This document shows, in pieces, positions 19,001-34,902 of a DNA stretch of 64,000 nucleotides (positions are counted from its first letter, which is position 1; each line of letters opens with the position of its first letter). The stretch spans positions 248,001 through 312,000 of the forward strand of contig NZ_JAKFUM010000002.1 of assembly GCF_021732705.1 (NCBI RefSeq). The letters are read 5' to 3'. The notes under the pieces were generated by a model. The model did not search any database. It saw nothing but the letters and a program-made list of their open reading frames with translations, and was not told the DNA's origin. The translations under genes and the position numbers were made by a program. This DNA comes from Nevskia sp. (GTDB taxonomy: Bacteria > Pseudomonadota > Gammaproteobacteria > Nevskiales > Nevskiaceae).

Positions 19001-19026
19001 GCTAAAACGGATGCATGAGGCTGCCG

Positions 19027-19053: not shown

Positions 19054-19088
19054 GCGTTCAGCCACCCGACTCTGGAGCGAATCTGGTC

Positions 19089-21296
19089 ATGCGAAACCTG
19101 TCTTGTCCCGCCCCGTCGACGGTGTCGATCTCACGCCGCATGGCGGTCGTTGCAACGGCGTTCGCAGCGGTCGTGCTTGCTGGCTGCGCCAGCCTGCCGA
19201 GCCTGCCGTTTGCGTCTGCCCCGAAGCCGCCGATCGCGAAGCAGGTGCCGTACACGGTGACCTCGCCGAACGGCGACCGGGTCGATCCGTACTACTGGCT
19301 GCGCGACGACACCCGGCAGTCGAACGACGTGCTGGACTATCTGAAGGCCGAAAACGCCTATCGCGATGCCGTGATGGCTCACACCGCGCCGCTGCAGCAG
19401 AAGCTGTACGACGAGATGGTGGCGCGGCAGAAGCCGGACGACGCCACGGTGCCGGTCTGGGACAACGGCTACTGGTATTGCAGCCGCTTCGAGCCCGGGA
19501 AGGAGCATGCGATTCAGGCCCGCCGCCAGGGACAGCGCGACGCGCCCGAGGAAGTCCTGATCGACGGCAACGCGCGCGCGATCGGCGCCTCGTTCTATTC
19601 GCTGGGTGGGCTCGATGTCAGCCCGGATGGCCAGAAGCTGGCGTTCACCGAAGATCTGGTGGGCCGGCGCCAGTACGTGATCAAGGTGAAGGATCTGGCG
19701 ACCGGCGAACTGCTGCCGGACGTCATCGAGAACGCCGAGCCCGATGTGCTGTGGGCGGCCGATGGCAAGACCTTGCTGTACATCGAGAAGGACCCGGTCA
19801 CGCTGCTGTCGACGCGGGTCAAGCGTCACCGCCTCGGCACCCTGTCGGTCAGCGATGTCGTCGTCCATGACGAGAAGGACACCAGCTACTACCTGAGCCT
19901 GAGCCGCGCCAGCTCCGGCAAGATGCTGTTCATCAACTTGACCAGCACGCTCCAGAGCGAGGTCCGCTACGCCTACAGCAGCGACGCCCGACTCGCCTTC
20001 AAGCCGGTGCTGCCGCGCGAGGCCGGGCACTTGTACAAGGCCGATCACGATGGCCGCGACTTCATCGTGCTGAGCAACTGGAAGGCGCAGAACTTCCGCG
20101 TGCTCCGCGCGCCGGTGAAGACCAGCAGCCGCAAGGGAACCTGGAAGGAAGTGCTGCCGGCACGCCGCGATGTGCTGATCGACGGCTTCGAGATCCATCA
20201 GGACGCGCTGGCGCTGAACGAGCGTGCCGATGGCCTGCTGAAGCTGCGCGTGCATCCGTGGAAGGCCGGCACCTCATTGAAGCAGGACGTCGTCATCGCG
20301 GCCGACGAACCGGCGTACACGATGGATCTCGTCGAGACGCCCGGCATCACCGGCCCCGGTGGGGCGCAGAAGCTGCGCTACCGCTACAGCTCCCTGATCA
20401 CCCCGGCGACGACCTACGACTACGACCTGAAGACCGGCCAGCGCGAACTGCTGAAGCGCACCGAGGTGCTTGGCGGCTTCGACAGCGCGAACTACCAGAC
20501 CGAGTTCCGCATGGCGACCGCTCGCGACGGCACGAAGGTGCCGGTCTCGCTGGCCTATCGCCGCGGCACGCCGCTCGACGGCACGGCGCCGCTGTACCAG
20601 TACGGCTACGGCTCGTACGGCTTCTCGAGCGATCCACGTTTCCACAGTGACTGGCTGAGCCTGCTCGACCGCGGCTTCGTCGTCGCCATCGCCCATGTCC
20701 GCGGCGGCCAGGAACTGGGCCGCGCGTGGTACGAGCACGGCAAGCTGCTGGAGAAGAAGAACAGCTTCACCGACTTCATCGACGTCACGGCGTTCCTGAC
20801 CCTGGAAAAGATCGCGGCAGCCGACAAGGTCTTCGCCGAAGGCCGCAGTGCCGGCGGGCTGCTGATGGGTGCTGTGCTGAATCTGGCTCCGGAGCGCTAT
20901 CGCGGCGTGGTTGCCGGCGTGCCATTCGTCGATGTCGTGACCACGATGCTCGACGAGTCCATTCCGCTGACGACGAACGAATTCGACGAATGGGGCAATC
21001 CGAAACAGAAGGCCTACTACGACTACATGCTGTCGTACTCGCCATACGACAACATCCGCCCGCAGGCCTACCCGGCGATCTACGTCCATACCGGCCTGTG
21101 GGACAGTCAGGTCCAGTACTACGAGCCGGCGAAGTGGGTGGCCAAGCTGCGCGCGATGAAAACGGATCAGCACCCGCTGATCTTCAGCATCGATCTCGCC
21201 GCCGGCCATGGCGGCAAGGCCGGGCGCTACGAGCGCCACCACGAAACCGCGCGCAGCTACGCGTTCATCCTCGACCAGATCGGAATCACGCAATGA
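19089..21296 (+). CDS. S9 family oligopeptidase (oligopeptidase B-like) lipoprotein
   Basis: 735 residues. The signal peptide ends in lipobox LAGC, so the protein is probably membrane-anchored in the periplasm, unlike cytosolic E. coli PtrB. A beta-propeller domain (about 60-470) begins with DPYYWLRDDTRQSNDVLDYL, typical of oligopeptidase B. The alpha/beta-hydrolase domain has the nucleophile in EGRSAGGLLMG, PFVDVVTTMLD and a catalytic His in AAGHGGKAGRYERHHE. It should cleave short basic peptides. Start at ATG 19089, 11 bases after GGAG. The stop overlaps the M23 peptidase start by 4 bases. It lacks the features of lasso isopeptidases and is 4 kb from the lasso genes. Confidence 0.92.
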   Translation: MRNLSCPAPSTVSISRRMAVVATAFAAVVLAGCASLPSLPFASAPKPPIAKQVPYTVTSPNGDRVDPYYWLRDDTRQSNDVLDYLKAENAYRDAVMAHTAPLQQKLYDEMVARQKPDDATVPVWDNGYWYCSRFEPGKEHAIQARRQGQRDAPEEVLIDGNARAIGASFYSLGGLDVSPDGQKLAFTEDLVGRRQYVIKVKDLATGELLPDVIENAEPDVLWAADGKTLLYIEKDPVTLLSTRVKRHRLGTLSVSDVVVHDEKDTSYYLSLSRASSGKMLFINLTSTLQSEVRYAYSSDARLAFKPVLPREAGHLYKADHDGRDFIVLSNWKAQNFRVLRAPVKTSSRKGTWKEVLPARRDVLIDGFEIHQDALALNERADGLLKLRVHPWKAGTSLKQDVVIAADEPAYTMDLVETPGITGPGGAQKLRYRYSSLITPATTYDYDLKTGQRELLKRTEVLGGFDSANYQTEFRMATARDGTKVPVSLAYRRGTPLDGTAPLYQYGYGSYGFSSDPRFHSDWLSLLDRGFVVAIAHVRGGQELGRAWYEHGKLLEKKNSFTDFIDVTAFLTLEKIAAADKVFAEGRSAGGLLMGAVLNLAPERYRGVVAGVPFVDVVTTMLDESIPLTTNEFDEWGNPKQKAYYDYMLSYSPYDNIRPQAYPAIYVHTGLWDSQVQYYEPAKWVAKLRAMKTDQHPLIFSIDLAAGHGGKAGRYERHHETARSYAFILDQIGITQ

Positions 21297-22138
21297 CCAG
21301 TTCGACCGTGCTCCGTGCCCTCGGCCTGCTGCTGGCCGCCGCAACGGCGACCGCGCAGGCCGCTCCGCCGGCCACCTATCAGGGCGACTGGGAGCAAGGC
21401 AGCCTGCTGATCGGCCACACCACGCCCGGCGCCAAGGTGCGGCTGGATGGCCGCGTGCTGCGGGTCTCGCCGGAAGGCCTGTTCCTGATCGGGCTTGATC
21501 GCGACGCCAAGCCCGTGGCGTCGGTCACGATCACTGTGCCCGGCGGCACCGACACGGTGGAGACGCACGATGTCGCCAAGCGCGAGTGGGACGTGCAGCC
21601 GCTGACCGGCATCGCGCCGAAATACGTCGATCCACCGGCCAAGGTGCTGGCGCGGATCAAGGCGGAGCAGGCGCAGATCAACGAGGTGCGCAAGCGCGAC
21701 ACCGCGATCACCGATTTCGCGACGCCGTTCGCGTGGCCGGCGCTCGGGCGCATCAGCGGCATCTTCGGCAGCCAGCGCATCCTGAACGGCACGCCGAAAT
21801 CGCCGCATTACGGTGTCGATGTCGCCGTACCCACCGGTACGCCGATCACTGCGCCATCCGGCGGCATCGTCGCGCTGGCGGAGCCGGATTTCTACTACAC
21901 CGGCGGCACCGTGATCATTGATCACGGCCACGGCCTGCAATCGATCCTCGTGCATCTGTCGAAGGTCAACGTGAAAGTCGGCCAGCGCGTGGAGCAAGGC
22001 GAGCCCGTGGCGCTGAGCGGCGCCACCGGCCGCGTCACCGGCCCGCACCTGCACTGGGGTCTGTACTGGTTCGGCGAGCGGGTGGACGCCCAGAAGTTCA
22101 CCGGGCCGATGCCGGCGAAGACGGCGGCTGCGCCTTGA
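21293..22138 (+). CDS. M23 (LytM) family metallopeptidase
   Basis: 281 residues: signal peptide (to about 24), a beta-rich N-terminal domain (about 25-130), and a LytM domain with the zinc ligands HYGVD, HLSK and HLHWGLYW. These enzymes cut peptidoglycan cross-links or activate amidases. All three metal-site motifs are intact, so it is probably active. ATG at 21293 overlaps the preceding stop (ATGA), indicating translational coupling with the oligopeptidase; the two may act together on periplasmic peptides. Confidence 0.93.
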   Translation: MTSSTVLRALGLLLAAATATAQAAPPATYQGDWEQGSLLIGHTTPGAKVRLDGRVLRVSPEGLFLIGLDRDAKPVASVTITVPGGTDTVETHDVAKREWDVQPLTGIAPKYVDPPAKVLARIKAEQAQINEVRKRDTAITDFATPFAWPALGRISGIFGSQRILNGTPKSPHYGVDVAVPTGTPITAPSGGIVALAEPDFYYTGGTVIIDHGHGLQSILVHLSKVNVKVGQRVEQGEPVALSGATGRVTGPHLHWGLYWFGERVDAQKFTGPMPAKTAAAP

Positions 22139-22156
22139 TCGGGCGCTGAACCCCGA

Positions 22157-22777
22157 TCAGCCGTTCGCGGCGCGCGCGGCGGCCAGATCGGCTTCCAGCG
22201 CCGCGATTCGGGCTTCCAGCGGCCCGACGACCTGCCGCAGTTGGGCATCGGTGTAGCGCGGCGTGATGTGCTGGTTGCAGTTCCAGTCGAAGGCTTCGAC
22301 CGTGATCAGCGCCACGCGCTCCATCGCCGCACGGTACGGGTACGGCCGCAGCAGGTCGACCAGCTTCGGATCGGCCTCGGCGATGTCCACCAGCTTGATC
22401 CGGCCGAGGATCTTGAGCCGCTGGCGGCTCGGATAATCGACGAGAAACAGCGCCACACGGTCATTGCCGGCGACATTGCCAGCGGAGATGTACTGGCGAT
22501 TGCCACGGAAATCGGCATAGGCCAGGGTCTTCGGATTCAGCGGCTTCAGAAAGCCCGGCGGCCCGCCGCGATGCTGCACGTAAGGCCAGCCGGTTTCGCC
22601 GACGCTGGCTTGATAGAAGTGATCGCGATGGGCGATGAACGCCGCTTCCACCTGCGTCAGCTGCGCATTCGGGCCGAAATCGGACTGGTAGCGCTCGTTG
22701 TCATGCAGGGCGCCGTAGTTGTCCTGCACGGCCTTCACGGCGGGCGTGAAGGCGAGTTCTGCGTAGCGGTGCGGCAT
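22157..22777 (-). CDS. Pyridoxamine 5'-phosphate oxidase-family flavoprotein
   Basis: 206 residues with an FMN-binding split-barrel: VGETGWPYVQHRGGPPGFLKPLNPKTLAYADFRGNRQYIS and RVALFLVDYPSRQRLKILGRIKLVD are the usual strands. The C-terminus is a helical, coiled-coil-like tail (LEARIAALEADLAAARA). Such proteins are not true PNPOx enzymes; they reduce or bind diverse substrates, and the ligand is unknown. Start at ATG 22777 with GGAA upstream. Convergent with the M23 gene and divergent from the PhoX-like gene. Confidence 0.85.
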   Translation of the reverse strand: MPHRYAELAFTPAVKAVQDNYGALHDNERYQSDFGPNAQLTQVEAAFIAHRDHFYQASVGETGWPYVQHRGGPPGFLKPLNPKTLAYADFRGNRQYISAGNVAGNDRVALFLVDYPSRQRLKILGRIKLVDIAEADPKLVDLLRPYPYRAAMERVALITVEAFDWNCNQHITPRYTDAQLRQVVGPLEARIAALEADLAAARAANG

Positions 22778-22893
22778 CGGGTCGTTCCGTCGGTGATGAC
22801 TGCGGCTTGTCACGGCGCAGTCACTGAAGCTCAATATCGTGACCGGCATTGTTCTTCATTTCCCGTTCCGATTTCGACACCGGCAGGTTTTCC

Positions 22894-24204
22894 ATGCAGT
22901 TCGATTCCCATTCCGGCCGCTGGCGCCGTTCCGCTCCGATGCTGCAGCAGACGCTCGATCGTCGCCGCTTCCTGCGCGACAGCTTTCTGGGCCTCGGCCT
23001 CGTCGCCATCGGCGGCTCGCTGAGCGGCTGCAGTGGCGGTGGCGGCCCGCTGGCCAGCACTGCACCCGCGCTCAGCGGCACGCTCGGCAATCTGTCTCCG
23101 ACGCCGGACGCCAACGGCCTGCTGCTGCCGCCGGGCTTCACGGCGCGGGTCATCGGGCAAGCCGGGCAAGTCGTGCCCGGAACCAACTTCCGCTGGCATA
23201 CCGATCCCGATGCCGGGGCCGTGTTCGCGCGCCCGGGTGGCGGCTGGGTCTACACCTCGAACCGCGAGTTCCTGCCGGGCGGGGTCGATGCCATCGAATT
23301 CGACGCCAGCGGCCAGATCAGCCGTGCCTACAACATTCTCCCCGGTGCCCAGAGCCGCCTGAACTGCGGCGGCGGCGTCACGCCGTGGAACACCTGGCTG
23401 AGCGGCGAGGAATACGATCTCGGCGTGATCTGGGAATGCGATCCGTTCGGGGTCGATGCGCCGCGCCGACTGCCGGCGCTCGGCACCTTCTCGCATGAAG
23501 CGGCCACCGTCGATGCCACCAGCAACATCGTCTACCTGACCGAGGACCAGCCGGACGGCCGCTTCTACCGCTTCGTGCCGACCACGCCGAACATCGGCGG
23601 CCGCGCCGATCTCACCGCCGGACGGCTGCAGGCGCTGCGCATCCTTGCCGACCCGGCCACGGTCAACGCCGAAGGCCGCGGCGGCCGCTGGGCGGTCGAA
23701 TGGCTCGACATCGCCAACCCGAACCCGGTGCTCGGCGGCGTGCTGTTCGGCACCCCGACGCGCCTGCAGGCACCTGACAGCTTCGCCTTCGATGGCGGCG
23801 AAGGCGTCTGGTACCAGCGCGGCATCGTCTACTTTGCGACCAAGGGCGACCGCCGCGTCTGGGCGCTGGATGTCGCTGCGCAGCGCATCGAAGTGATCTA
23901 CGACGACGCCGGCTTTTCCGCGCCGGTGCTGAGCAGCGTCGACAACATCGTGCTGACGCCGCGCGGCGACATCGTCGTCTCCGAAGACCAGGCCGCCGAT
24001 GCGCAGGTCGTCGCCATTCGCCCGGACGGCCGCATCCAGCCGCTGGTGCAGCTCGGGCCCGCACACGCCGGCTCCGAGGTCACCGGCCCGGCATTCTCGC
24101 CGGACGGCCGCTTCTTCTATTTCAGTTCCCAGCGCGGCACCAGCGGCCGTACCGGGGTCGACGGCATCACCTACGCCGTCGAGGGGCCGTGGTTGGCGAG
24201 CTAG
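22894..24204 (+). CDS. PhoX-like (DUF839) TAT-exported protein
   Basis: 436 residues. The N-terminus has a twin-arginine signal, RRRFLRDSFLGLGLVAIGGSLSGC, which also looks like a TAT lipoprotein signal with a lipobox Cys. The mature protein is a beta-propeller of the DUF839/PhoX family, with FRWHTDPDAGAVF, GGGVTPWNTWLSGEE and FSHEAATVDATSNIVYLTEDQPDGRFYRFVP, a typical metal-site stretch. PhoX members are calcium/iron alkaline phosphatases, but many DUF839 proteins are of unknown substrate. Start set at ATG 22894 rather than an upstream TTG. Confidence 0.85.
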   Translation: MQFDSHSGRWRRSAPMLQQTLDRRRFLRDSFLGLGLVAIGGSLSGCSGGGGPLASTAPALSGTLGNLSPTPDANGLLLPPGFTARVIGQAGQVVPGTNFRWHTDPDAGAVFARPGGGWVYTSNREFLPGGVDAIEFDASGQISRAYNILPGAQSRLNCGGGVTPWNTWLSGEEYDLGVIWECDPFGVDAPRRLPALGTFSHEAATVDATSNIVYLTEDQPDGRFYRFVPTTPNIGGRADLTAGRLQALRILADPATVNAEGRGGRWAVEWLDIANPNPVLGGVLFGTPTRLQAPDSFAFDGGEGVWYQRGIVYFATKGDRRVWALDVAAQRIEVIYDDAGFSAPVLSSVDNIVLTPRGDIVVSEDQAADAQVVAIRPDGRIQPLVQLGPAHAGSEVTGPAFSPDGRFFYFSSQRGTSGRTGVDGITYAVEGPWLAS

Positions 24205-24344
24205 TGCAGTCGCGGCCGCACCCGTTGGGGGGGCTTGTCTATGCAGCCGGATGACGATCCCGGTCAGCGCACCCGCCAGCAAGGGCCAGCACAACAGGAA
24301 CGGCAAGGCTCGGATCGGCGACGTGGCGGCAGCCGGCGCAGGCG

Positions 24345-25331
24345 TCACCGGATCGTCCTCGGGCGGAACGCTTGCAAGCATCTGCGAATCGGCTTCGCGG
24401 GAGCTGCGGGGGCGCGTGCCGATGGCGGCAAGACCACCAGCTCCGCCCGGAATGGTTGATCTTCGGGAAGGCGAAGATTCCACGCCAGCCCCACCCGCGC
24501 CAGCGCGCACAGGAACCACCAGCCGGGGTCCCATTCGCCGGCCCGCAATCCGAGCTTTGCGGAGCCCGGCCACGCGTGATGATTGTTGTGCCAGCACTCG
24601 CCCATCGTCAGCAGCGAGGTCAGGCGGATGTTGCGCCCCTGCACCGCAGCGCCGGAAACCATCACGGGCACGCCGCCGTGGTTGTGCGCGAGGTAGCCGA
24701 TCAGCCAGTGTCCGAACACGCCGGCCGTGACCCGTGCACAGACACCCCAGAACACGAAACCCCAGCCGCCCCAGGCGAACAGCAGCAACGCCCACGGCAA
24801 CTGCTGCGCCATCCAGGTGGCTTGCAGGAATCGGTAGAAGCGGTCGTCGGCGATGGCCTGCTCGATGCGGATATCCGGCGGGTTCGCGAGCTTCAGGTCG
24901 CCATGCAACTGCCACCAGGCATCCCGAAACAAGCCGCTGCGATGCGCGAGGAAGTCATGACACAGGGGCCGACGCTGCGCGTAATCGCGCAACTCGTGGC
25001 TGCGCAGCAAACCCAGAGGTCCCGCCAGCCCGACCAGCACGCCGCAATAGACCAGCAGGTATTCGAGCCACTGCGGCGAATCGAAACTGCGGTGGATCAG
25101 CTTGCGATGCATGCCCACCGAATGGCCCAGCAGCAACACCAGCATCGTCGAGCCGACGAACAGCGCGAACGCAGCCCACGAAAACCACAGCGCGCCACCC
25201 ACCACGGCCGAGACCGCCATGGCTGAAAACCACAGCGACCGGACCGGTTCCCAGACGACGTGTCCGATCAGAACACTGTCGTTGCCGGTCGATCGAACCC
25301 GGTGCTGCGCACAGCGCTCGGCAATCTCCAT
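24345..25331 (-). CDS. Membrane fatty acid desaturase-like protein with an altered second His box
   Basis: 328 residues with four or more hydrophobic segments. The first histidine box is GMHRKLIHRSF and the third GECWHNNHHAWPGSAKLGL, as in acyl-CoA/acyl-lipid delta-9 desaturases. The usual HRxHH box is missing; the matching position reads HELRDYAQRRPLCHDFLAHR. This pattern occurs in a proteobacterial desaturase subfamily, so activity is plausible but unproven. ATG 25331 is preferred (AAGGGG 8 bases upstream). It is transcribed away from the lasso genes, with 256 bases between that hold no other clear gene. A role in the lasso pathway is not implied. Confidence 0.82.
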   Translation of the reverse strand: MEIAERCAQHRVRSTGNDSVLIGHVVWEPVRSLWFSAMAVSAVVGGALWFSWAAFALFVGSTMLVLLLGHSVGMHRKLIHRSFDSPQWLEYLLVYCGVLVGLAGPLGLLRSHELRDYAQRRPLCHDFLAHRSGLFRDAWWQLHGDLKLANPPDIRIEQAIADDRFYRFLQATWMAQQLPWALLLFAWGGWGFVFWGVCARVTAGVFGHWLIGYLAHNHGGVPVMVSGAAVQGRNIRLTSLLTMGECWHNNHHAWPGSAKLGLRAGEWDPGWWFLCALARVGLAWNLRLPEDQPFRAELVVLPPSARAPAAPAKPIRRCLQAFRPRTIR

Positions 25332-25587
25332 CGCCACGCCCCTTGTTCCATGGTCTGGGAGCATCACTTCAGCGCATCTCCTTCGTCCTACGATACGGCC
25401 GCGCGGCGTCGAACGCCAAAGCGGCACCTGGCCCGAACGCCGGTCGAAGACACCCCCGAATCACGACGCGCAGCACCGCGAACGATGCCGCCGAGCGCCA
25501 CGCCGCCGCGTCATCGCCGTGGATTGATCGCGACACCGTGTTTCGTGAACACTGCCGACAGCCTTGGCAGCAGCGGAGCATCCGGCG

Positions 25588-26292
25588 ATGGCGGTCAGCG
25601 AACACATCCGGCACGTGCAGATCGACGATGTCATCGTGCTGCTCGATATCCGCGCCGGGCGCTATCTGCTGATCGAGGACGTCGCGGCCGAGATGTGGGA
25701 TGGCATGTGCCGGGACCGGACGCCGGAGCAGATCGTCGACGACATCAGCGCCCGCTATGACGCGGCGCGCGATCAGGTGGCGCAGGACTTCGCGCAGTTC
25801 CTCGCGTCATGCCGCGCCAACGGTTACTGGGACGATGCGCCGGCCGCGCCGGCCTTGCCGGTGGTGCCACGCAGCGCAAGCGCGGTTGCAGCCGGCCGCC
25901 ATTTCCTGACCTTGCGCGCCTGGCTGGCCTTGCTGGCGAGCTGGATGACCCTGAAAACCGGCGGCTTCCATGGCCTGCATGGCGCGGCGCAGCGGCTGGC
26001 AGCGATGCCGCGCGGCGCGGGCCAGCCGGATGCGCAACTGCTGCAGCGTGCGGAAGCGGCCTTCCTGCGCGCGGAGAACTTCTTCATCTTGAAGAGCGCG
26101 CCGCAGGATTGCCTGCCGCGCTCGATGGCGATGTACCGCTTCCTGCACGGTCTCGGCCTGCCGGTGCGGCATCGGATCGGGGTCGAGCGCTATCCGCTGA
26201 CGATGCACGCCTGGGTCGAATGCGACGGCGAGCCGGTGCTGAACGATCCGGACGCCGGCCGCATGACCGTGATCGCGACCACCGGCGCATGA
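25588..26292 (+). CDS. Lasso peptide maturase B (fused RRE and transglutaminase-like leader peptidase)
   Basis: 234 residues. The N-terminal 85 residues are a PqqD-like RiPP recognition element (VIVLLDIRAGRYLLIEDVAAEMWDGM) that binds the precursor leader. Residues about 100-234 are a transglutaminase-like cysteine protease of the McjB type, with Cys175 (DCLPRS), His207 (MHAWVE) and Asp220 (VLNDPD) as the likely triad. The two parts are fused, as usual in proteobacteria. The enzyme should cut the leader from the core before cyclisation. ATG 25588 follows GGAG by 9 bases. Its stop overlaps the cyclase start (ATGA), showing coupling. Confidence 0.92.
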   Translation: MAVSEHIRHVQIDDVIVLLDIRAGRYLLIEDVAAEMWDGMCRDRTPEQIVDDISARYDAARDQVAQDFAQFLASCRANGYWDDAPAAPALPVVPRSASAVAAGRHFLTLRAWLALLASWMTLKTGGFHGLHGAAQRLAAMPRGAGQPDAQLLQRAEAAFLRAENFFILKSAPQDCLPRSMAMYRFLHGLGLPVRHRIGVERYPLTMHAWVECDGEPVLNDPDAGRMTVIATTGA

Positions 26293-28061
26293 GCCGCTTC
26301 GCGGGCCGGGTGGCGCGCACGCCGCAGGCGGCGCTGACGGCGCAGCCGGCCCCGCTGCTGCGCGATGGACTGCAGGTGCTGCTGCGCGGCTTCATCGGCA
26401 ACCGGCAGACGCTGCTGCGCGAAGGCCGCGCCCTGGGGCTGATCGGCGAGCACGAGGACGACGCCGCGCTGTGTGCCGTCGCGTACCGGCGCTGGGGAGC
26501 CGACCTGAATGCCCACGTGCTGGGCGAGTACGCCGTGGCGCTGTTCGATCCAGCCGCGCAGACCTTGCTGCTGACCCGCGACGGCCTCGGCCTGCAGCCG
26601 CTGTTCTACAGCGGTGATGGCGAACGCCTCGCGTTCGCCTCGCATCTGGACGCGCTGCTGACGATCGTCGAGCCCGGCGCGCTGGACACGCGCTATCTCG
26701 GCGAACATCTGACTTTCGCCCCGCATGCCTTCGACCGCACGCCGTTCGTCAACATCGCGAAACTGATCCCCGGGCACAGCCTGCGCTGGACACCGGGCAG
26801 GCTCGAACAGATCCGCTCGTGGCGGCTCAGTCAGGCGCCGGACGTGCCGGATGCCACGGATCGCGAGCACGAAGCACGCTTTCGCGAACTGCTGGCCGAA
26901 GGGCTGCGCCAATGCATTCCGGCAACCGGGCGGACCTGGTCGGAGCTGTCCGGCGGGCAGGATTCGTCATCGATCGTCTGCGCGGCGGCCGATGCCGGCA
27001 TCACCGGGCTCGAAACGCTGTCGTTCGTGTTTCCGCACTGTCAGGAAGCCGACGAAACGCCGTACATCGAGGCCGTGACCGCGCGCACCGGCTATCCCGC
27101 GCATCGGCTCGACATCCAGCAGACGCCCCCGTTCGCGCGCGTGCCCACGACCTTCCACGGCGAGCCGAACCTGGTGCTGCCGTACACCGCGTTCATCGAG
27201 CGCTACGAAGACCTGATGCGCGAGCATGACGTGCAGGTGATGCTGTCCGGCAATGGCGGCGATCACGTGATGATCGGCGATGGCCTGTTTCCGCTCGATC
27301 TGGCCGACCACCTGCAGCGCGGGGATGGCCGCGCGCTGTGGCAGGGCCTCAAGGACTGGCAGGCTCATGCCGAGCACCGGCGCTCGCTGCGCTTCCTGTT
27401 CGGTCATTACGCCTGGACGCCGGCTTGGCGCCATTGGCGACGGCAACCGGTGTCGCCGCGCTTCACGATCCCGGTGCCGGAATGGATCGCGCCCGACTTC
27501 CTGCGCCGCTTCCGGGCCGCGGCCGCCGACGCGCGATGCGAGCCACCGGACCATGGATCGTCGCCAAGCCGGCAGTACTTCATCGAGCGCGTCCACGATT
27601 TCTCGGCGCTGATCAGCCAGAACGCGCATCAGGCCGTGCGCGGATTCGAGTTCCGCTATCCGCTGATGTACCGGCCGCTGGTCGAGTTCCTGTACGCGCT
27701 GCCGTGGCGGCAGAAGCTGCGGCCGGACGGCGATCGGCATCTGCAGCGCCGTGCCATGCACGCGCTGCTGCCGGCCGAGGTGCGCGATCGCGTCGACAAG
27801 GCCGTGATGACGCGCCCGGTGCTCGAAGGCTTTCGCCGTTCGCCGGCGTGGTTCGATCTGCTGACGCGCCAGCCGCAGCTCATCGAGCACGGGCTGGTCG
27901 ATGCCGCGCGCTGGCAGGACGCCGTCCGTCGCGCGCGCCTCGGGCAGATCGAAGGTGTTTCGCTGTTCCTGGCTGCGGCAGCACTGGAAGCCTGGCTGCA
28001 GGGGCTGTGCGCGCATCGCGCCGATCGGCCAGCGGCAAACCCGGAAGTGGTGGGCATATGA
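26289..28061 (+). CDS. Lasso peptide macrolactam synthetase C (asparagine synthetase-like)
   Basis: 590 residues. The N-terminal region (about 1-180) resembles a class II glutaminase domain but has no Cys at position 2 (MSRFAGRV), so it cannot make ammonia. The asparagine-synthetase ATP-pyrophosphatase domain follows, with the PP-loop SELSGGQDSSSI (221-226 is SGGQDS), VMLSGNGGDHVMIGD, and the C-terminal RYPLMYRPLVEFLYALP helix. The enzyme should adenylate an acidic side chain of the core and close an isopeptide bond to its N-terminus. Overlap with B by 4 bases. The short tail MDP/GI ends just before the precursor promoter region. Confidence 0.92.
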   Translation: MSRFAGRVARTPQAALTAQPAPLLRDGLQVLLRGFIGNRQTLLREGRALGLIGEHEDDAALCAVAYRRWGADLNAHVLGEYAVALFDPAAQTLLLTRDGLGLQPLFYSGDGERLAFASHLDALLTIVEPGALDTRYLGEHLTFAPHAFDRTPFVNIAKLIPGHSLRWTPGRLEQIRSWRLSQAPDVPDATDREHEARFRELLAEGLRQCIPATGRTWSELSGGQDSSSIVCAAADAGITGLETLSFVFPHCQEADETPYIEAVTARTGYPAHRLDIQQTPPFARVPTTFHGEPNLVLPYTAFIERYEDLMREHDVQVMLSGNGGDHVMIGDGLFPLDLADHLQRGDGRALWQGLKDWQAHAEHRRSLRFLFGHYAWTPAWRHWRRQPVSPRFTIPVPEWIAPDFLRRFRAAAADARCEPPDHGSSPSRQYFIERVHDFSALISQNAHQAVRGFEFRYPLMYRPLVEFLYALPWRQKLRPDGDRHLQRRAMHALLPAEVRDRVDKAVMTRPVLEGFRRSPAWFDLLTRQPQLIEHGLVDAARWQDAVRRARLGQIEGVSLFLAAAALEAWLQGLCAHRADRPAANPEVVGI

Positions 28062-28074
28062 ACAATCCCGGCCT

Positions 28075-28080
28075 TTGACA
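28075..28080 (+). promoter_or_regulatory. Perfect -35 hexamer upstream of the lasso precursor
   Basis: TTGACA, 14 bases after the cyclase stop and 128 bases before the precursor ATG. The -10 is not clear: spacers of 17-20 give TGCCAA to CAAATT. A dedicated promoter for the precursor would be sensible, since it lies last in the operon. Confidence 0.4.
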
Positions 28081-28207
28081 GCGTTTCCGGCCGGTGCTGC
28101 CAAATTCTGCCGGTAGCAGCGTCCGGTTCCGTTGGGTGGTCTCGCGCTGCATGTCGGCATCGTGCAGTTCTTTCGTTTCCAGTCTTCACCCCGCAGAAGG
28201 AGATGAC

Positions 28208-28372
28208 ATGAAGAAAACGTACAGCGCACCGCGAGTGCACGACCTTGGCTCGGCCGTCGTCCTGACCAAGGGCAGCTACCCGCACACGCCCGAAACCCAC
28301 GGCACCACCGATCACAAGATCACGCGGGTCCGTACCGCATCGACCGTCCGCAAGGACCACGGCAAGGGCTGA
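28208..28372 (+). CDS. Lasso peptide precursor A
   Basis: 54-residue precursor starting MKKTYSAPRVHDLG behind an excellent AAGGAG ribosome site. The leader carries Y5-x2-P8-x-V10-x3-G14-x5-T20, the known lasso leader pattern YxxPxLxxxGxxxxxT (Val in place of Leu), and ends T20-K21 with Thr at the conserved -2 position. The predicted core begins at G22, GSYPHTPETHGTTDHK, so Gly1 can bond to Glu8 to make an eight-residue ring. The core is 33 residues, long for the class, with a 25-residue basic tail and no Cys. The tail may be trimmed. The frame stays open upstream of 28208, but the motif and ribosome site fix the start. The next gene on this strand is far away. Confidence 0.85.
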   Translation: MKKTYSAPRVHDLGSAVVLTKGSYPHTPETHGTTDHKITRVRTASTVRKDHGKG

Positions 28373-28385
28373 GGCGACAGGCGTT

Positions 28386-28424
28386 CGGTCAGGCCCGCGC
28401 GAACACGGCGGGCCTGACCGTTTC
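28386..28424 (+). terminator. Strong terminator after the lasso precursor
   Basis: Perfect 13-bp stem CGGTCAGGCCCGC (28386-28398) and GCGGGCCTGACCG (28408-28420), 9-base loop, then TTTC. It starts 14 bases after the precursor stop and closes the lasso unit. Confidence 0.85.
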
Positions 28425-28729
28425 GGCCCGGCCCTCGTGGCCGCGACGTGCAGGAAACGATGTCGGAAGCACCTCACGCTTCATGGCGGCCGACGACTTC
28501 GTTCTACCGCCGGACACAGCCGTCGAACGAGCGGACATTCGCGCGCCATCCAAGGCGCGCGCCACATTCACCATGAAAGCCCGTCCGACCGTCGCGACCG
28601 ACGTCCTGATCAGGCGGCCTTCGGGATCGACGATCTGAAACTCGCCGCAGGCAGGCGGATCGTTGAGCCGACTCGCGAATTCGGCCCGCGATCAGTCGCG
28701 AGCGGTCGCCATCGAGATCGACCGGGCCG
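28425..28729. other. Intergenic region, no gene supported
   Basis: About 300 bases between the lasso terminator and the end of the M28 peptidase gene. Short open frames on both strands lack a ribosome site or any lasso-leader pattern, so no second precursor is called. Presumably it contains the 3' end signal of the peptidase mRNA, but no clear T-tailed hairpin was found. Confidence 0.6.
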
Positions 28730-30139
28730 TCAGTTCGTGCCCGCAGCCGCCGCCACCGGCGCATCGAAACTGCCGACGAAGCCGGGGAACACGACCGGGC
28801 TCTCGGCGCCGTCGGTGCTGATGCTGGAGACGCCGAAGAACCAGTTGTCGATGACGATGTTGGCGAGCTTCGTGGACGTGGCGTCGGCGCCGACGCGGCG
28901 CGAGTGCTGCCATTGCGGGGCGGTGGTGTCGCGCCACCAGACGCGATAGCCGGCGGCACCGGTGACGGGTTTCCACTTGACCACGGTGTCGGGCGTCACC
29001 GCCCCTTCGATCTCGACACCACTCGGCGGCGCCGGTGCGGCGGCCATCGAGGCCATCGTGATCGCGTTCAGACGGGTGACCTGCGCCAGATAGTCGAAAT
29101 CGACGCCGTCGATGGTGTCGCCGAACGTCACGCCGTTTTCGGTGCGCAGATCCTGATGCTGGCGGTGGTAGTGCTCGTGCGGTTCGGACACGCGCACCGC
29201 CGGGTAGCCGGCTTCGAGCAGCGGCACCTGATCGCCGCCGCGGGCGTAGCGATCGGTGCGGTAGATCATCTGCACCCTGAAGTTGCTGAGGTTTTCGTCG
29301 GCCAGACGCGCCATGTAGCGCGCGATGTTGCGCGATGGCGAATCGACTTCGCCGCCGTTGTAGCCGCGCTGCCTGGCCTGCTCCGGCGTTTCGGTGCGAC
29401 GCGTGCCTTCGCTAAGCACGCGGACTGTGGTGGTGTCGGTGACGCCATCCTGTCCGGTGGAATTGCCGACGATGTCGTTGTTCAGATCGGCCACCACCTG
29501 CCAGCCCTGCGCCTTGGCGTAGTCGGCGAGGATCTTGCCGCCGAGCAGTCCCTGCTCCTCGCCGGACAGCGCGGCGTAGACCAGGGTTGCGCCGAAGCGA
29601 TGCTTCGACAGCACGCGCGCCGCTTCGATGGCGGCGGCAACGCCGGAGGCATCGTCGTTGGCACCGGGCGCGTCGCTCTTGAAGTTCATCACCTCGCTGA
29701 CCCGGGAATCGAGATGGCCGGCAATGATCACGACCCGGTTCGGCTCGCGGCTGCCGCGCTGGATCGCCAGCACGTTGACCACTTCGGTCGGCGTCGGCAC
29801 GCGCTTGCCGGTGACGACATCGGACGGCGTGACGATGTCCAGACAGCCGCCGCAGGCCTGGCCGATGCGGCCGAACTCCGCCGCGACCCAGCGCCGTGCA
29901 GCGCCGATGCCGCGCTTGTCGGACCGGGTCTCGGACAAGGTGTGGCGAGTGCCGAAGCTGACCAGCTTCTCGATCGTCGCCCGCAGCGCGGCGGGGCTCA
30001 CGGCATCGGCAATGGCCGGCAATGCGGCGGGTATGGGCGACAGCGCGGCCTCGGCTGGCGGCGGCTCGGCAGCCCGGGCGACGACGGGCAGAATCAGGGC
30101 AACGGCAGCGGTTGCGACAGCGGTCGAAACGGGGTTCAT
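28730..30139 (-). CDS. Secreted M28 family zinc aminopeptidase
   Basis: 469 residues. A signal peptide (MNPVSTAVATAAVALILPVVARA) precedes an M28 catalytic domain at about 100-330, with the zinc ligands in IIAGHLDSR, APGANDDASGVAA, ALSGEEQGLLGG and DLNNDIVG, and a late HEHYHRQHQD. The C-terminal 110 residues (PPSGVEIEGAVTPDTVVKWKPVTGAAGYRVWWRD) look like a fibronectin type III-like domain used for substrate or surface contact. Expected to release N-terminal residues from extracellular peptides. It converges on the lasso operon. A strong hairpin terminator lies 110 bases upstream on the same strand. Whether it touches the lasso product is speculation. Confidence 0.93.
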   Translation of the reverse strand: MNPVSTAVATAAVALILPVVARAAEPPPAEAALSPIPAALPAIADAVSPAALRATIEKLVSFGTRHTLSETRSDKRGIGAARRWVAAEFGRIGQACGGCLDIVTPSDVVTGKRVPTPTEVVNVLAIQRGSREPNRVVIIAGHLDSRVSEVMNFKSDAPGANDDASGVAAAIEAARVLSKHRFGATLVYAALSGEEQGLLGGKILADYAKAQGWQVVADLNNDIVGNSTGQDGVTDTTTVRVLSEGTRRTETPEQARQRGYNGGEVDSPSRNIARYMARLADENLSNFRVQMIYRTDRYARGGDQVPLLEAGYPAVRVSEPHEHYHRQHQDLRTENGVTFGDTIDGVDFDYLAQVTRLNAITMASMAAAPAPPSGVEIEGAVTPDTVVKWKPVTGAAGYRVWWRDTTAPQWQHSRRVGADATSTKLANIVIDNWFFGVSSISTDGAESPVVFPGFVGSFDAPVAAAAGTN

Positions 30140-30252
30140 CGGCGAATGCCTGCGGGGAAAGGACGATGCGCGAGCTTATCGCCCGATTCGCGGCTCCGGC
30201 GATGAAACTGCGCGGCTTTTCGCGAAAAGACGGGCAGCGGCCAGCGCCGGGC

Positions 30253-30284
30253 AAAAAAAACCGGCTCGTCTTGCGACGAACCGG
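30253..30284 (-). terminator. Orphan terminator upstream of the M28 peptidase gene (possible attenuator or sRNA end)
   Basis: On the minus strand, CCGGTTCGTC-GCAA-GACGAGCCGG (one G-U pair) is followed by eight T. A classic strong terminator, but no minus-strand gene lies just upstream of it, and the M28 gene begins about 110 bases downstream. Confidence 0.75.
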
Positions 30285-30615
30285 CAACCTTCCAACCCCT
30301 GGGTGAACTGGTGACCGGCGATGACTGCATCGGCCGGCATCGTCGGCAAGCGCAATGGCGGCTCGCCGGTGACTGATTCGGTTACGGGCGACCGCTGGAA
30401 ACGGATGCCGAGGCTGCTCATGCAGCGCAGCGATGGTCGATCCGGGCCGGATTCTTCGATATGTCCGTCAATCCCCGATTTATGCCATTTCGTTCAGCCG
30501 GCCGAGGCCGGCCAGACAGGCTGCGCGACGCCGGGAACCGCTGCGCACGCCGCCGTCGGCGCGATGCACGGCCGCGCTGCCGCGACGAACGCCCGTGTCG
30601 CGCCGCCTTCGCCGC

Positions 30616-30644
30616 TTGGGAGGCGTTCGCGCGGGTGCTATCCT
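30616..30644 (+). promoter_or_regulatory. Sigma70-like promoter
   Basis: TTGGGA (30616-30621), 17-base spacer, TATCCT (30639-30644) with an extended TGC before it. The start of the downstream secreted protein is 31 bases further on. Confidence 0.55.
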
Positions 30645-30674
30645 TTTCACCGGGTTTCGACGGCAAGTCCTTCT

Positions 30675-31028
30675 ATGCAAAACAGAATTCTGGCCCTCGG
30701 GCTGCTGCTGGCAGGTGTCGCGGCTTGGCCGGCCCGCGCTGACGAACTGTCGATCCCGACGGCAACGGCGGACCGCGAGCAGGCCGCACCCGCGGTCGTG
30801 CTGCCGACGCGCGGCGCGACGCAGGCGGCCGTGGTCAAGACTTACGGACAGCCGACGAAGCGTTATCCGGCCGTCGGCGGCGCATCGCCGGTGCAGCCGC
30901 CGATCACGCGCTGGGACTATCCGGGCTTCTCGGTGTTCTTCGAGAACGCGCATGTCGTCGATGCCGTGGTGCCCGGTCGGCCAGCGCAGATTTTCCACGC
31001 CGACCAGCTGAAGACCACGGCGAACTGA
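30675..31028 (+). CDS. Conserved hypothetical secreted protein
   Basis: 117 residues, no named domain recognised. The signal peptide MQNRILALGLLLAGVAAWPARA is clear. The mature part has RGATQAAVVKTYGQPTKRYPAVGG and PPITRWDYPGFSVFFENAHVVDAVV, a pattern resembling small SmpA/OmlA-like envelope proteins where a short helix precedes a YGxP turn and beta strands. Likely periplasmic. A good promoter sits just upstream. It lies ahead of aguA on the same strand but with its own start region. Confidence 0.72.
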   Translation: MQNRILALGLLLAGVAAWPARADELSIPTATADREQAAPAVVLPTRGATQAAVVKTYGQPTKRYPAVGGASPVQPPITRWDYPGFSVFFENAHVVDAVVPGRPAQIFHADQLKTTAN

Positions 31029-31155
31029 CGCCGTCGCCCGAGCGCCGTCCGGTTGCGGTTGCGCAGCCGGCGCGCCGCCGTTCATGCTTTCATCATTCGC
31101 GGCCCGCAGGCTCTGCCCGCTGCCGCGCGACTCTTTCACCCCGATCCTTCCTTCG

Positions 31156-32184
31156 ATGACCTTTGCCCAGACCCTGCCGCCCGAGTGGGCGCCGCAAGCC
31201 GCGATCATGCTGACCTGGCCGCGTCGCGACGGTGACTTCGCGCGCCATTTCCCGGCCGTGGAGCGCAATTTCATCGCGATCGCACAGGCCATCACCCGCT
31301 TCCAGAACCTTCACGTGAACGTCGCGGAACAGGGCGATGCCTTGCAGGCGCAGCTGATCGCCGCCGGCGTCCCGCGCGAGCGCCTGATCGTCCATGAAGT
31401 GCCGAACGATGATGTCTGGGCGCGTGACCACGGGCCGATCACGGTCCGGCGCGGCAATGGCTTCGTCCATCTGGACTTCACGTTCAATGGCTGGGGCAAC
31501 AAGTTCTCGGCGGCGCGCGACAACGCGCTGACCCGGAAACTCGAGCAGTACGGCGCCTGGCAGTCGCCTGTCGAGACGATCGATTTCGTGCTCGAGGGCG
31601 GCGCGCTGGAAGTCGACGGCCACGGCACCCTGCTGACCACCGAGCGCTGCCTGCTGGCACCCACGCGCAACCCGCACTTGAACCGCGAGCAGATCGAGGA
31701 CGTGCTGAAAGCGCAGCTCGGGCTGAACCGCGTGCTGTGGCTGAAGCATGGCGATCTGATCGGCGACGACACCGACGGCCACATCGACACCATCGCCCGC
31801 TACTGCGATCCGACGACGATCGCCTATCAGGCCTGCGAAGACCCGTCCGACGCGCACTACGAAGACCTGGCGGCGATGGAGGCGGAACTGCGGGCGCTGC
31901 GCGACTGGCAGGGCCGTCCGTACAAGCTGGTCGGCCTGCCGCTGCCGGCGCCGATCGTCGACGCCGACGATGGCCGTCGCCTGCCCGCCGGCTATGCCAA
32001 TTTCCTGATCATGAATGGCGCCGTGCTGGTGCCGATCTACGGCCAGCCGCTCGACGAGGAAGCGCTGCGCCGCCTGCGTCCGCTGTTCCCGGATCGCGAA
32101 GTGATCGGCATCGACTGCAACGCGCTGATCCAGCAATACGGCGGCCTGCACTGCATCACGATGCAGCTGCCGGCCGGCGCCTGA
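31156..32184 (+). CDS. aguA: Agmatine deiminase
   Basis: Converts agmatine to N-carbamoylputrescine, 342 residues. Start at MTFAQTLPPEWAPQAAIMLTWPRR, the usual PPEWxxxxAxxLxWP beginning. The guanidine-group-modifying fold shows NDDVWARDHGPI, LEGGALEVDGHGTLLTTERCLL, the DDTDGHIDT acid/His motif, and the catalytic Cys near the end in GGLHCITMQ. All active-site elements are present. Followed after 11 bases by aguB, so the two make the route from arginine-derived agmatine to putrescine. Confidence 0.95.
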   Translation: MTFAQTLPPEWAPQAAIMLTWPRRDGDFARHFPAVERNFIAIAQAITRFQNLHVNVAEQGDALQAQLIAAGVPRERLIVHEVPNDDVWARDHGPITVRRGNGFVHLDFTFNGWGNKFSAARDNALTRKLEQYGAWQSPVETIDFVLEGGALEVDGHGTLLTTERCLLAPTRNPHLNREQIEDVLKAQLGLNRVLWLKHGDLIGDDTDGHIDTIARYCDPTTIAYQACEDPSDAHYEDLAAMEAELRALRDWQGRPYKLVGLPLPAPIVDADDGRRLPAGYANFLIMNGAVLVPIYGQPLDEEALRRLRPLFPDREVIGIDCNALIQQYGGLHCITMQLPAGA

Positions 32185-32195
32185 GGAGATCGACG

Positions 32196-33086
32196 ATGAC
32201 TGCGAAAACCCTGCGCGTGGGGCTGGTCCAGCAAGCCTGCTCGAACGACCGTGCGGTCAGCATCGCCGCCAGCGAGGCCGGCGTGCGCGACGCGGCGGCG
32301 CGCGGCGCGAAACTGGTGATGCTGCAGGAGCTGCATACCTCGCTGTACTTCTGCCAGCACGAGTCGACCGATCTGTTCGATCTGGCCGAGCCGATTCCCG
32401 GGCCGTCGACCGAGTGGCTGGGCCGGCTGGCCAAGGAACTGGACATCGTGCTCGTCGGCAGCCTGTTCGAACGCCGTGCGCCGGGGCTGTATCACAACAC
32501 CGCCGTGGTGATGGATCGCGACGGCACGATGGTCGGCAAGTACCGGAAGATGCATATCCCGGACGATCCCGGCTACTACGAGAAGTTCTACTTCACGCCG
32601 GGCGACCTCGGCTTCACGCCGATCGCGACCAGTGTCGGCAAGCTCGGCCTGCTGGTCTGCTGGGACCAGTGGTATCCGGAGGCCGCGCGGCTGATGGCGT
32701 TGGCCGGGGCCGATCTGCTGCTGTACCCGACGGCGATCGGCAACAATCCGGAAGACCCCGAGGACGAGCGCGAACGCCAGCGCGAGGCCTGGGTGACGAT
32801 CCAGCGCGCGCATGCCGTGGCCAACGGGCTGCCGGTGCTGGTTGCGAACCGCATCGGCCACGAGCCGGACCCGACCGGCCAGACGCCGGGCCAGCGCTTC
32901 TGGGGCACCAGCTTCGTCGCCGGGCCGCGGGGCGAGTTTCTCGCGCGCGCATCGACCGATCAGCCGGAAGTGCTCGTGGTCGACATCGACCTCGCCCGCT
33001 CCGAGAACGTGCGCCGCTGGTGGCCATTCCTCAGGGACCGCCGGATCGAGGCCTACGGCGATCTGGTCAAGCGCTTCCGCGATTGA
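32196..33086 (+). CDS. aguB: N-carbamoylputrescine amidase
   Basis: 296-residue nitrilase-superfamily enzyme that hydrolyses N-carbamoylputrescine to putrescine, CO2 and ammonia. The Glu-Lys-Cys triad is seen in LQELHT, YRKMHIPDDP and LVCWDQWYPEAARLM. Full length. ATG 32196 with GAGGAG upstream; 11 bases after aguA. The in-frame open stretch upstream of this ATG is the aguA coding region read in another frame. A terminator follows at 33103. Confidence 0.95.
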   Translation: MTAKTLRVGLVQQACSNDRAVSIAASEAGVRDAAARGAKLVMLQELHTSLYFCQHESTDLFDLAEPIPGPSTEWLGRLAKELDIVLVGSLFERRAPGLYHNTAVVMDRDGTMVGKYRKMHIPDDPGYYEKFYFTPGDLGFTPIATSVGKLGLLVCWDQWYPEAARLMALAGADLLLYPTAIGNNPEDPEDERERQREAWVTIQRAHAVANGLPVLVANRIGHEPDPTGQTPGQRFWGTSFVAGPRGEFLARASTDQPEVLVVDIDLARSENVRRWWPFLRDRRIEAYGDLVKRFRD

Positions 33087-33102
33087 CCGCGAACGCGGAG
33101 CC

Positions 33103-33131
33103 ACGCGGATGACGTTTGTCATCCGCGTTTG
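33103..33131 (+). terminator. Terminator after aguB
   Basis: Perfect 11-bp stem ACGCGGATGAC / GTCATCCGCGT with loop GTTT, followed by TTGC. Short T-tail but stable stem, 16 bases past the aguB stop. Confidence 0.7.
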
Positions 33132-33211
33132 CTGACGCCGGAAACTGCTGCCGGACCGCGCGCGGCGCGAGCATTTCCCCATCGCACCCGTACCCGATGG
33201 AGGACTTTCCG

Positions 33212-33610
33212 ATGCGCCCGTCGCCCGATGCCGTCGCCACGCTGAAGCTGGCCATCCAGACCGTCACCCAGAGCGCCTTCCAGACCGTTCTGCCGCTGCT
33301 GATCCGCGCCGGCATCCGCCGGTTCATCGTCGGCCTGTGGTTCGCCATCATGTTTTCGCTGTTCGGTCTGCCGTGGACGCAGCGTGGTGCCGATCACGGC
33401 GGAGCGAACGGGGCGCGCGTCACGCCGTGGTCGGTCATGGCACGGCAGCACGAGGCGCGTCCGGCGGCCGTCCCCAATGAGCAGACACGCCATGACGACA
33501 TGACGGCCGACATCGCCGCCGGCTCTGCGCGCGCCGACCGCGAGCCGGCCGACGCCGGCAGCGAGCGCCGACGGTTCAAGACGCGCGGCCCGGCCGTCTG
33601 GTGGCTGTGA
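33212..33610 (+). CDS. Small membrane protein coupled to a two-component system
   Basis: 132 residues, unrecognised. An amphipathic N-terminus (MRPSPDAVATLKLAIQTVTQSAFQ) and one hydrophobic stretch (LLIRAGIRRFIVGLWFAIMFSLFGLPW) suggest a single-span inner-membrane protein with a charged, disordered tail rich in Ala, Arg and Asp. ATG 33212 follows a perfect GGAGGA site. Its TGA shares one base with the ATG of the histidine kinase (TGATG), so it is translated with the kinase and may modulate or be an accessory to it. That role is inference. Confidence 0.7.
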   Translation: MRPSPDAVATLKLAIQTVTQSAFQTVLPLLIRAGIRRFIVGLWFAIMFSLFGLPWTQRGADHGGANGARVTPWSVMARQHEARPAAVPNEQTRHDDMTADIAAGSARADREPADAGSERRRFKTRGPAVWWL

Positions 33611-34902
33611 TGAGTCGACCAGCGCCCGCGCTTGCACCGGCCCACGGGGATCGTCAGCATCACGACGATCTGCTGGTGCCGCCATCGATGCTCGAACGCC
33701 TGCTCAAGCCACATCCGAACTGTCTGGCGATCGTCATCGGCCGCGGCGGCCGACTGTCCAGCAACAGCTGGTTTCCGGTGATCAACCTGGTCTGGCTGTT
33801 CTGGGTGTTCGCCGCGCCGTGGTTCGGCAATTCGTTCAAGTGGTCGCAGCTGCTGATCACCTACGCCTCGGTGCTGCCGTTCCTGTGGCTGTATCTAAGC
33901 GCCTGGTATCGCGACCGGCGGCATCTGCAGCGATTGACCGCGGCGCTCGCGGCGTTCGCGCTGATCTCGGTGCCGGTGATCCAGAGCTGGTCGTACATCA
34001 TCTACGCGAGCGTGCTGCTGATGTACGAGCGGCCGCCGCGGACGGCGCTGATGCTGCTCGGCGCGTACATGGCCGCGTTCGTGGCGCTGTCGCTGGTCAA
34101 TGGCTGGCCGCTGCTCGGCACCGGCGGCGCCGTGCTGACCTGTGCCGCCATCTCGCTGATCAATCTGTTCTTCATCATCGATGCCCGTCACGACCACGCG
34201 CTGCGCCTGACGCAGGCGGAAGTGCGGCGCCTCGCCGCGAGTGCGGAGCGCGAACGCATCGGCCGCGACCTGCACGACCTGCTCGGGCACACGCTGTCGC
34301 TCATCGCGATCAAGAGCGAACTGGCCGATCGCCTGTTCGAGCGGGACCCGGTTGCCGCACGCCGCGAACTGCGCGAGCTGCATACCGTGGCGCGCGATTC
34401 GCTGGCGCAGGTCCGCACCGCAGTCACCGGCATCCGCGCGACCGGCCTCGCGGCCGAGCAGGTTTCCGCGCGCCTGCTGCTGGAATCGTCGAACGTGGCC
34501 TTGTCCGGCATCGAGCCGATCGGCCCGCTGCCCGCCGAAATCGACGCCGCGCTGGCGATGTGCCTGCGCGAAGCGGTGACCAACATCCATCGACACGCCA
34601 ACGCCCGGCAGGTGCAGCTTGAACTGCGTCAGGAGCCGGGCCTGATCGAGCTGCGCGTGACCGACGACGGCTGCGGCGGCGTCGACCCGCGCCGCTACGG
34701 GAATGGCCTGCAAGGCATGCAGCAGCGGCTGGCGGCGCTCGGTGGCAGTCTTGTCGTCGAATCCCCGGCCGGCCGCGGCACGACGCTGCGCCTGCGCCTG
34801 CCGCAAGCGCAGCAGGCCGCTGCCAGTCCGCAAGCGCGCGCCTCCGATGCTGCACCGATGCAGGAACCCGCCGCCGCCGTGATCGCCCATGAACCCGGAT
34901 AG
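33610..34902 (+). CDS. Sensor histidine kinase, DesK/HPK7 type
   Basis: 430 residues with four or five transmembrane segments at about 50-190, then a HisKA_3 dimerisation domain with ERERIGRDLHDLLGHTLSLIAIKSELA (phospho-acceptor His in RDLHD), and an HATPase_c domain with REAVTNIHRHANA, VTDDGCGG and GNGLQGMQQRL. No sensory domain outside the membrane is evident, as in DesK, which senses membrane state. Overlaps the small membrane protein by one base and the response regulator by 14. The signal sensed is unknown. Confidence 0.92.
   Translation: MSRPAPALAPAHGDRQHHDDLLVPPSMLERLLKPHPNCLAIVIGRGGRLSSNSWFPVINLVWLFWVFAAPWFGNSFKWSQLLITYASVLPFLWLYLSAWYRDRRHLQRLTAALAAFALISVPVIQSWSYIIYASVLLMYERPPRTALMLLGAYMAAFVALSLVNGWPLLGTGGAVLTCAAISLINLFFIIDARHDHALRLTQAEVRRLAASAERERIGRDLHDLLGHTLSLIAIKSELADRLFERDPVAARRELRELHTVARDSLAQVRTAVTGIRATGLAAEQVSARLLLESSNVALSGIEPIGPLPAEIDAALAMCLREAVTNIHRHANARQVQLELRQEPGLIELRVTDDGCGGVDPRRYGNGLQGMQQRLAALGGSLVVESPAGRGTTLRLRLPQAQQAAASPQARASDAAPMQEPAAAVIAHEPG

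Follow-up and report, generated by a model that had tools for sequence, protein, structure and literature searches.

Does a three-gene locus in the genome of Nevskia sp. encode a lasso peptide, and what do the relatives of its enzymes suggest about the range of such peptides? The locus lies in a 64,000-nucleotide stretch of contig NZ_JAKFUM010000002.1 (hereafter the window) and comprises three intact frames in the order B-C-A, all on the forward strand at 25588-28372. Its gene set, domains, the catalytic Cys and His of B, the PP-loop of C, the leader register, the candidate ring residues and the cyclase branch can be read directly from the sequence, and on these grounds the genes very probably form a lasso peptide cluster, whose putative product is predicted to be threaded and may be trimmed in its tail. 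Lasso clusters are numerous, and in the features tested this one fits the known lasso rules except in its long tail, its gene order and an Asn in B. The branch of cyclases in which it falls is a stronger lead than the locus itself. Published systems are cited by PMC identifier.

The predicted cluster and its precursor

The locus contains the following features (aa, amino acids; nt, nucleotides; RRE, RiPP recognition element; RiPP, ribosomally synthesized and post-translationally modified peptide).

25588..26292, + strand: lasB, 234 aa; PqqD-type RRE (residues 17-79) fused to a lasso leader peptidase B2 domain
26289..28061, + strand: lasC, 590 aa; lasso cyclase, asparagine-synthetase-like; its PP-loop reads SGGQDSS, and residue 2 is not Cys
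28195..28202, + strand: ribosome-binding-site-like AGAAGGAG, read in the sequence 5 nt upstream of the lasA start
28208..28372 (stop included), + strand: lasA, 54-aa precursor; leader 1-21 (28208-28270), predicted core 22-54
28271..28369, + strand: putative core of 33 aa, GSYPHTPETHGTTDHKITRVRTASTVRKDHGKG, with a Gly1-Glu8 ring; by calculation, 3608.83 Da for the untrimmed lasso
28386..28420, + strand: strong hairpin 3' of lasA (-36.8 kcal/mol, z -3.78), a possible transcription end

The precursor consists of the leader MKKTYSAPRVHDLGSAVVLTK followed by the core, and carries Y5, P8, V10, G14 and T20 at positions -17, -14, -12, -8 and -2. This fits the published register of Tyr(-17), Pro(-14) and Leu(-12) with Thr(-2) (PMC10368454), with Val at -12. 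The core begins GSYPHTPE and continues for 25 residues to the end KDHGKG. Because Glu8 is the sole acidic residue in core positions 1-10, the ring prediction is unambiguous under lasso rules. The core has no Cys, which places it in class II and sets it apart from class IV, with its tail-tail disulfide between two Cys. A strict form of the motif (Y..P.[LIV]...G.....T.G with D/E at 7-9) matched a single site over all six frames of the window and none in 200 simulated 64-kb sequences (order-3 Markov), in which a loosened form had 12 matches in total.

The original prediction, made from the letters of the window, had proposed this 54-residue precursor with its leader pattern and a Gly1-Glu8 ring in the core GSYPHTPE, and all of these elements were read again in the sequence. 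It had also described a 25-residue, very basic, Cys-free tail. The absence of Cys and a content of six Lys or Arg stand, but the 25 residues after the ring comprise loop as well as tail, and they include two Asp (with three His).

The leader peptidase and the cyclase

B matched PqqD (PF05402, 47.8 bits, cut-off 23.4), Transglut_core3 (PF13471, 68.8 bits, cut-off 26) and lasso_biosyn_B2 (NF033537, 66 bits, cut-off 33), and was the sole PF13471 and NF033537 match in its own genome; the fusion of an RRE with a transglutaminase-like domain, as first proposed, is borne out by these profiles. Over eight sequences, residues D174, C175, R178, S179 and H207 of B were invariant. The RRE matched those of TbiB1 and TfuB1 by sequence, and in a structure model of B (mean predicted local distance difference test score, pLDDT, 78.9) it superposed on TbiB1 with bound leader at a template modelling (TM) score of 0.79-0.90, target-normalised. 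C matched PF00733 (120.9 bits, above cut-off) and PF13537 (59.1 bits), and its SGG.DSS PP-loop was invariant in the five sequences compared. The gene overlaps that of B by 4 nt (ATGA), in agreement with the earlier description of an asparagine-synthetase-like cyclase in coupled overlap; lasA starts 146 nt downstream of the end of C.

From these features we infer how cleavage, ring closure and threading would proceed, and with them the mature length and function of the product. The RRE of B would bind the YxxPxV leader, and the cysteine-protease part would cut after Lys21, before Gly22, with Thr(-2) as the recognition residue. C would activate the side chain of Glu8 in an ATP-dependent step and couple it with the Gly1 amine, so that a ring of eight residues would enclose the threaded chain of a class II product with no cysteines. 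His, Lys and Arg residues after the ring (e.g. His15, Lys16, Arg19 and Arg21) may hold the thread, while the basic end would protrude and might be shortened by cell proteases.

A sparse branch of cyclases across phyla

The genome groups searched for relatives were samples in which some members may have been missed, and counts refer to the matches listed. A single-sequence scan of genome contigs with B found no relative, and a two-sequence B profile found 46 loci. Among 100 related genomes, B was matched in two (its own and one weak partial match), and within the genus in one of the 18 genomes searched. C was found in its own genome only, among the matches listed for 369 genomes of the class (E <= 1e-50). 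B2 proteins occurred in 8/85 genomes of the window's order, its own included, and ten over-cut-off loci from the other seven included no close relative by B or C.

Two further profiles gave similar results among the matches listed. Profile A3 found one of 347 genomes in the phylum of an Acidobacteriaceae locus described below (L030; its own genome), one of 297 in the order of a Roseiarcus locus (L031; its own) and four of 148 in the phylum of an Eremiobacterota locus (L032; one its own). Profile A4 found four of 117 genomes in the class of a further locus (L091), the same four as in the L032 phylum, and for the window's phylum a single genome out of 398, the one that carries the cluster. No relatives were found in phages and viral contigs. 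The cluster and its cyclase branch are therefore rare and sparse.

The best relatives came from taxonomically distant bacteria. The nearest by B was L030 (38% identity in B, 35% in C), followed by L031 (34% and 34%), L032 (34% and 37%), the Sagittula locus L033 (31% and 27%) and L017, on the Pedobacter plasmid pA27BH1 (28% and 30%). Three further loci of the branch (L091-L093) came from the phylum of L032. In a tree of 48 cyclases, nine rows including the window formed one branch with support of 100/100, separate from the actinobacterial cyclases and from the other seven rows contributed by the window's order. Within it, L031, L032 and L091 formed a sub-branch (100/99). A label given to eight chosen rows required two changes on the tree, since L033, on a long branch, falls inside. 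The tree was built from B-guided searches (48/56 hits kept after a length filter), contains no experimentally characterised cyclases and is a partial sample of lasso cyclases. No description of the branch was found in the open-licence literature searched.

Precursors of the branch and their accessory genes

Eight precursors, that of the window included, were recognized in six of the nine branch loci. They were hand-picked for their place and strand from the matches to leader patterns in which neither an acidic residue nor Thr exactly at -2 was required, and cores were read in a fixed register starting 14 residues after the leader Pro.

Window precursor: Gly at position 1; core of 33 aa
L030, two precursors: Gly1 and Glu8; cores of 25 and 25 aa
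L017 precursor: Gly1; core of 20 aa
L031 precursor: Asn1 and Asp9; core of 33 aa
L032 precursor: Leu1 and Asp9, core of 36 aa; or Gly1, 35 aa, if cut one residue later (Thr still at -2)
L091, two precursors: Gln1 (48 aa) and Met1 (50 aa), both with Asp9

All eight had Thr(-2) and an acidic residue at position 8 or 9, and the predicted cores span 20-50 aa. Conservation of Gly1 and Glu8 in homologous precursors had been put forward as a check on the predicted ring. It holds in the same register for both precursors of L030, but not in four of the eight, where another first residue is combined with Asp9. These four are still compatible with lasso formation, because their rings fall within the range of 7-9 residues and Asn1 has a precedent in metanodin (PMC12670498). 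The first residues found experimentally in lasso peptides were Gly, Cys, Ser and Ala until metanodin added Asn (PMC12670498); Gln, Leu and Met, here predicted from sequence, would be new by that account.

Four of nine comparison precursors (L022, L023, L037 and L046) had Thr(-2) in the fixed register; the other five say little about core length, because they did not. We considered whether long cores are exclusive to the branch and rejected this, as L046, a betaproteobacterial lasso-like precursor at 9044-9304 of its locus, reads in this register as a 34-aa core with Gln1 and Glu8. In L022 (4653-7290) and L023 (8531-11198), both from one genome (G007) of the same genus, genes for PqqD and B2 proteins adjoin those of short peptides whose leaders look lasso-like. 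These peptides end VPIGGSGG and PPIGGSGF and have no acidic core residue, and no cyclase match was seen in the stretches fetched, where the L023 contig ends close by. Their sequences possibly point to another leader-peptidase RiPP without ring closure.

Genes for 2-oxoglutarate-type hydroxylases lie near three of the five related loci with precursors (L030, L031 and L032), the matches being to PF13759, PF13621 and PF05118/PF05373. L031 and L032 have an extra lone PqqD together with a 2OG-FeII_Oxy_5 protein, while at L030 a Cupin_8 protein is encoded upstream, on the opposite strand, and an Asp/Arg-hydroxylase-like protein downstream. Precursors at these three loci have acidic ends (VEE, VDE, ELDD and LADR). 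No hydroxylase was seen in the parts of the flanks scanned at L017 and L091, or among the twelve flanking genes scanned in the window.

Other features of these loci are recorded here. At L091 (6829-7385, - strand), the two precursors are paralogues encoded between B and C; both contain CDGTPCDGTGW and have the conserved end DHxHIESEATKPR, and a frame for a Met-zincin-type metalloprotease (DUF4953) follows C. At L017 (3279-4577), a RimK-like ATP-grasp gene and a 103-aa open reading frame directly upstream of the lasso genes have the look of a graspetide pair. The genome of L030 has a second lasso-type locus (L094, 2811-7322). It contains two frames for cyclases, and its peptide, which in the fixed register reads Ile at -2, resembles an Acidobacteriaceae kind mentioned in PMC10368454.

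Comparison with known systems

The window cluster resembles isopeptidase-type clusters of the caulonodin and astexin kind, which we take to combine a fused B and a class II core with the lack of an ABC transporter. It differs from antibacterial transporter-type clusters, which have an ABC transporter D gene. None was found among the 12 flanking window genes scanned (19092-36539, one without a family), and 7000-7842 was the only window frame with both ABC motifs searched. Proteobacterial clusters of the isopeptidase type are described in a passage of PMC7549694; in the window cluster no isopeptidase gene was seen, and its order is B-C-A.

The 33-residue core had been called unusually long. The predicted length stands, but pandonodin also has 33 aa, with an 18-aa tail (PMC13352647), and is the longest-tailed lasso peptide named in two reviews, which describe its tail disulfide (PMC13352647, PMC7549694). 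The original prediction had named it as a long-tailed proteobacterial lasso peptide with Cys residues. Pandonodin (class IV, from Pandoraea; PMC13352647, PMC7549694, PMC9266682) shares with the window peptide a 33-residue core, a long segment after the ring and a proteobacterial source. It differs in its tail disulfide and its panABCD genes, as the window cluster has no Cys in its core, no D gene and the order B-C-A; the comparison is one of cores and gene content. The window core therefore ties with pandonodin in length and does not exceed it, and does so only if the tail is kept. If untrimmed, the longest predicted cores of the branch, of up to 50 aa, would exceed this 33-aa record.

Metanodin (soil metagenome, Steroidobacterales; PMC12670498) is likewise gammaproteobacterial, and its Asn1 is the residue predicted for L031. 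It has a 10-residue linear part, whereas the window peptide has a Gly1-Glu8 ring and 25 residues after it; the comparison here is one of peptides. In the canucin A cluster, the Fe/2-oxoglutarate hydroxylase CanE acts on a C-terminal Asp (PMC9266682). L030, L031 and L032 are similar in having hydroxylase-type genes and acidic precursor ends, unlike the window cluster, and by this likeness to CanE the hydroxylases of the branch may act on those ends.

Tentatively, and with more doubt than confidence, we suggest that the branch is an undescribed, rare and phylum-scattered group handling predicted cores of 20-50 aa. L031, L032 and L091 would close nine-residue rings between Asp9 and a first residue that is Asn, Leu, Gln or Met in place of Gly, hydroxylases would decorate acidic ends in some members, and the window peptide would keep a Cys-free basic tail. 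The branch would then offer cases for the limits of lasso cyclases, in first residues beyond Gly, Ala, Ser, Cys and Asn, in cores of up to 50 aa and in coupling to hydroxylases. If its full length is kept, the window lasso peptide would equal pandonodin in length without any Cys, and could help to find out what length of tail a cyclase can thread and what a long basic tail does.

Points against a lasso cluster and alternative explanations

Several results weigh against the identification of a functional lasso cluster. The precursor had no Pfam match, its NCBIfam lasso matches were all under threshold (best NF033521, 15.4 bits, cut-off 19) and tblastn found no homologues of it in the loci searched. 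No precursor was found in three of the nine branch loci (L092, L093 and L033), and half of the branch precursors depart from the Gly1-Glu8 pattern (those of L031, L032 and L091). The best NCBIfam match of C, the lasso cyclase NF033535, scored 213.7 bits, under the cut-off of 525. In the model of B, confidence is low for the loop preceding Cys175, and no solved structure matched the fold of the protease half at E <= 0.001 (the best match to a cysteine protease had E 0.015, TM 0.23), so the assignment of this half rests on family profiles. Finally, the third triad position of B, which we take from McjB to be H+12, is Asn219, which could lower activity. This position is Asp in six of eight branch sequences and Gly in L032, and both exceptions have an Asp one residue on (Asp220 in B). 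The substitution may be harmless; papain-type enzymes have Asn at the third triad position.

The strongest alternative, to which we give a substantial probability somewhat short of even, is that the C-terminal part of the core is a follower or disposable tail, trimmed away to leave an ordinary class II lasso peptide of 16-21 residues. Predicted core lengths in the branch range from 20 to 50 aa at a constant leader register and acidic position, and the two paralogues of L091 are more alike at the tail end than in residues 1-4 of the ring. Endogenous carboxypeptidases acting during cellular expression are also mentioned in PMC13352647. However, no shared processing protease adjoins the branch loci in the parts of the flanks scanned, the Met-zincin frame being present at L091 alone, and pandonodin keeps its long tail (PMC13352647, PMC7549694).

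It is improbable that the cluster has degenerated or fallen silent and that the lasso peptide is no longer made from it. Its occurrence in one of the 18 genus genomes searched with B, the Asn in B and the lack of a transporter among the flanking genes scanned speak for such a relic, but the three open frames, the tight B/C overlap, the good ribosome-binding site before A and the host-like G+C content argue for an intact cluster, as does retention of the catalytic Cys and His of B and the PP-loop of C. Less probable still is that the product of B and C is of another sort, either some other macrolactam or an unthreaded, branched-cyclic peptide, for although Gln1, Leu1 and Met1 in the branch are unlike reported lasso cores (PMC12670498), the window precursor has Gly1-Glu8 with Thr(-2) and a ring of eight within the known range, and L030 also has Gly1 and Glu8.

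Genomic setting of the lasso genes

The G+C content of the cluster (65-73%) is host-like, and an insertion of foreign base composition was rejected on this ground. A consensus scan of the region gave no promoter, and the hairpin 3' of lasA has no clear T run and was missing from the output of a consensus terminator scan. The divergent gene at 24345-25427 was considered as a hydroxylase neighbour and rejected, being of FA_desaturase type (42.3 bits, cut-off 29.7) and unlinked to the cluster; it is present in 2/17 other genomes of the genus. The M28 gene downstream of the cluster was found in 8/17 (E <= 1e-40), and within about 1.5 kb on either side of it no other window neighbour was seen at E <= 1e-3 with seven query proteins, M23 being left out, such that no empty site was demonstrable.

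No dedicated isopeptidase gene was seen beside the cluster. An S9 prolyl-oligopeptidase-family protein (PF02897, PF00326) with a lipoprotein-like N-terminus is encoded at 18972-21296, 4.3 kb upstream, outside the operon and with other genes in between; it presumably belongs to the same broad family as lasso isopeptidases. Further downstream, adjoining PAD_porph and CN_hydrolase genes at 31084-33086 are, we presume, an agmatine deiminase and an N-carbamoylputrescine amidase.

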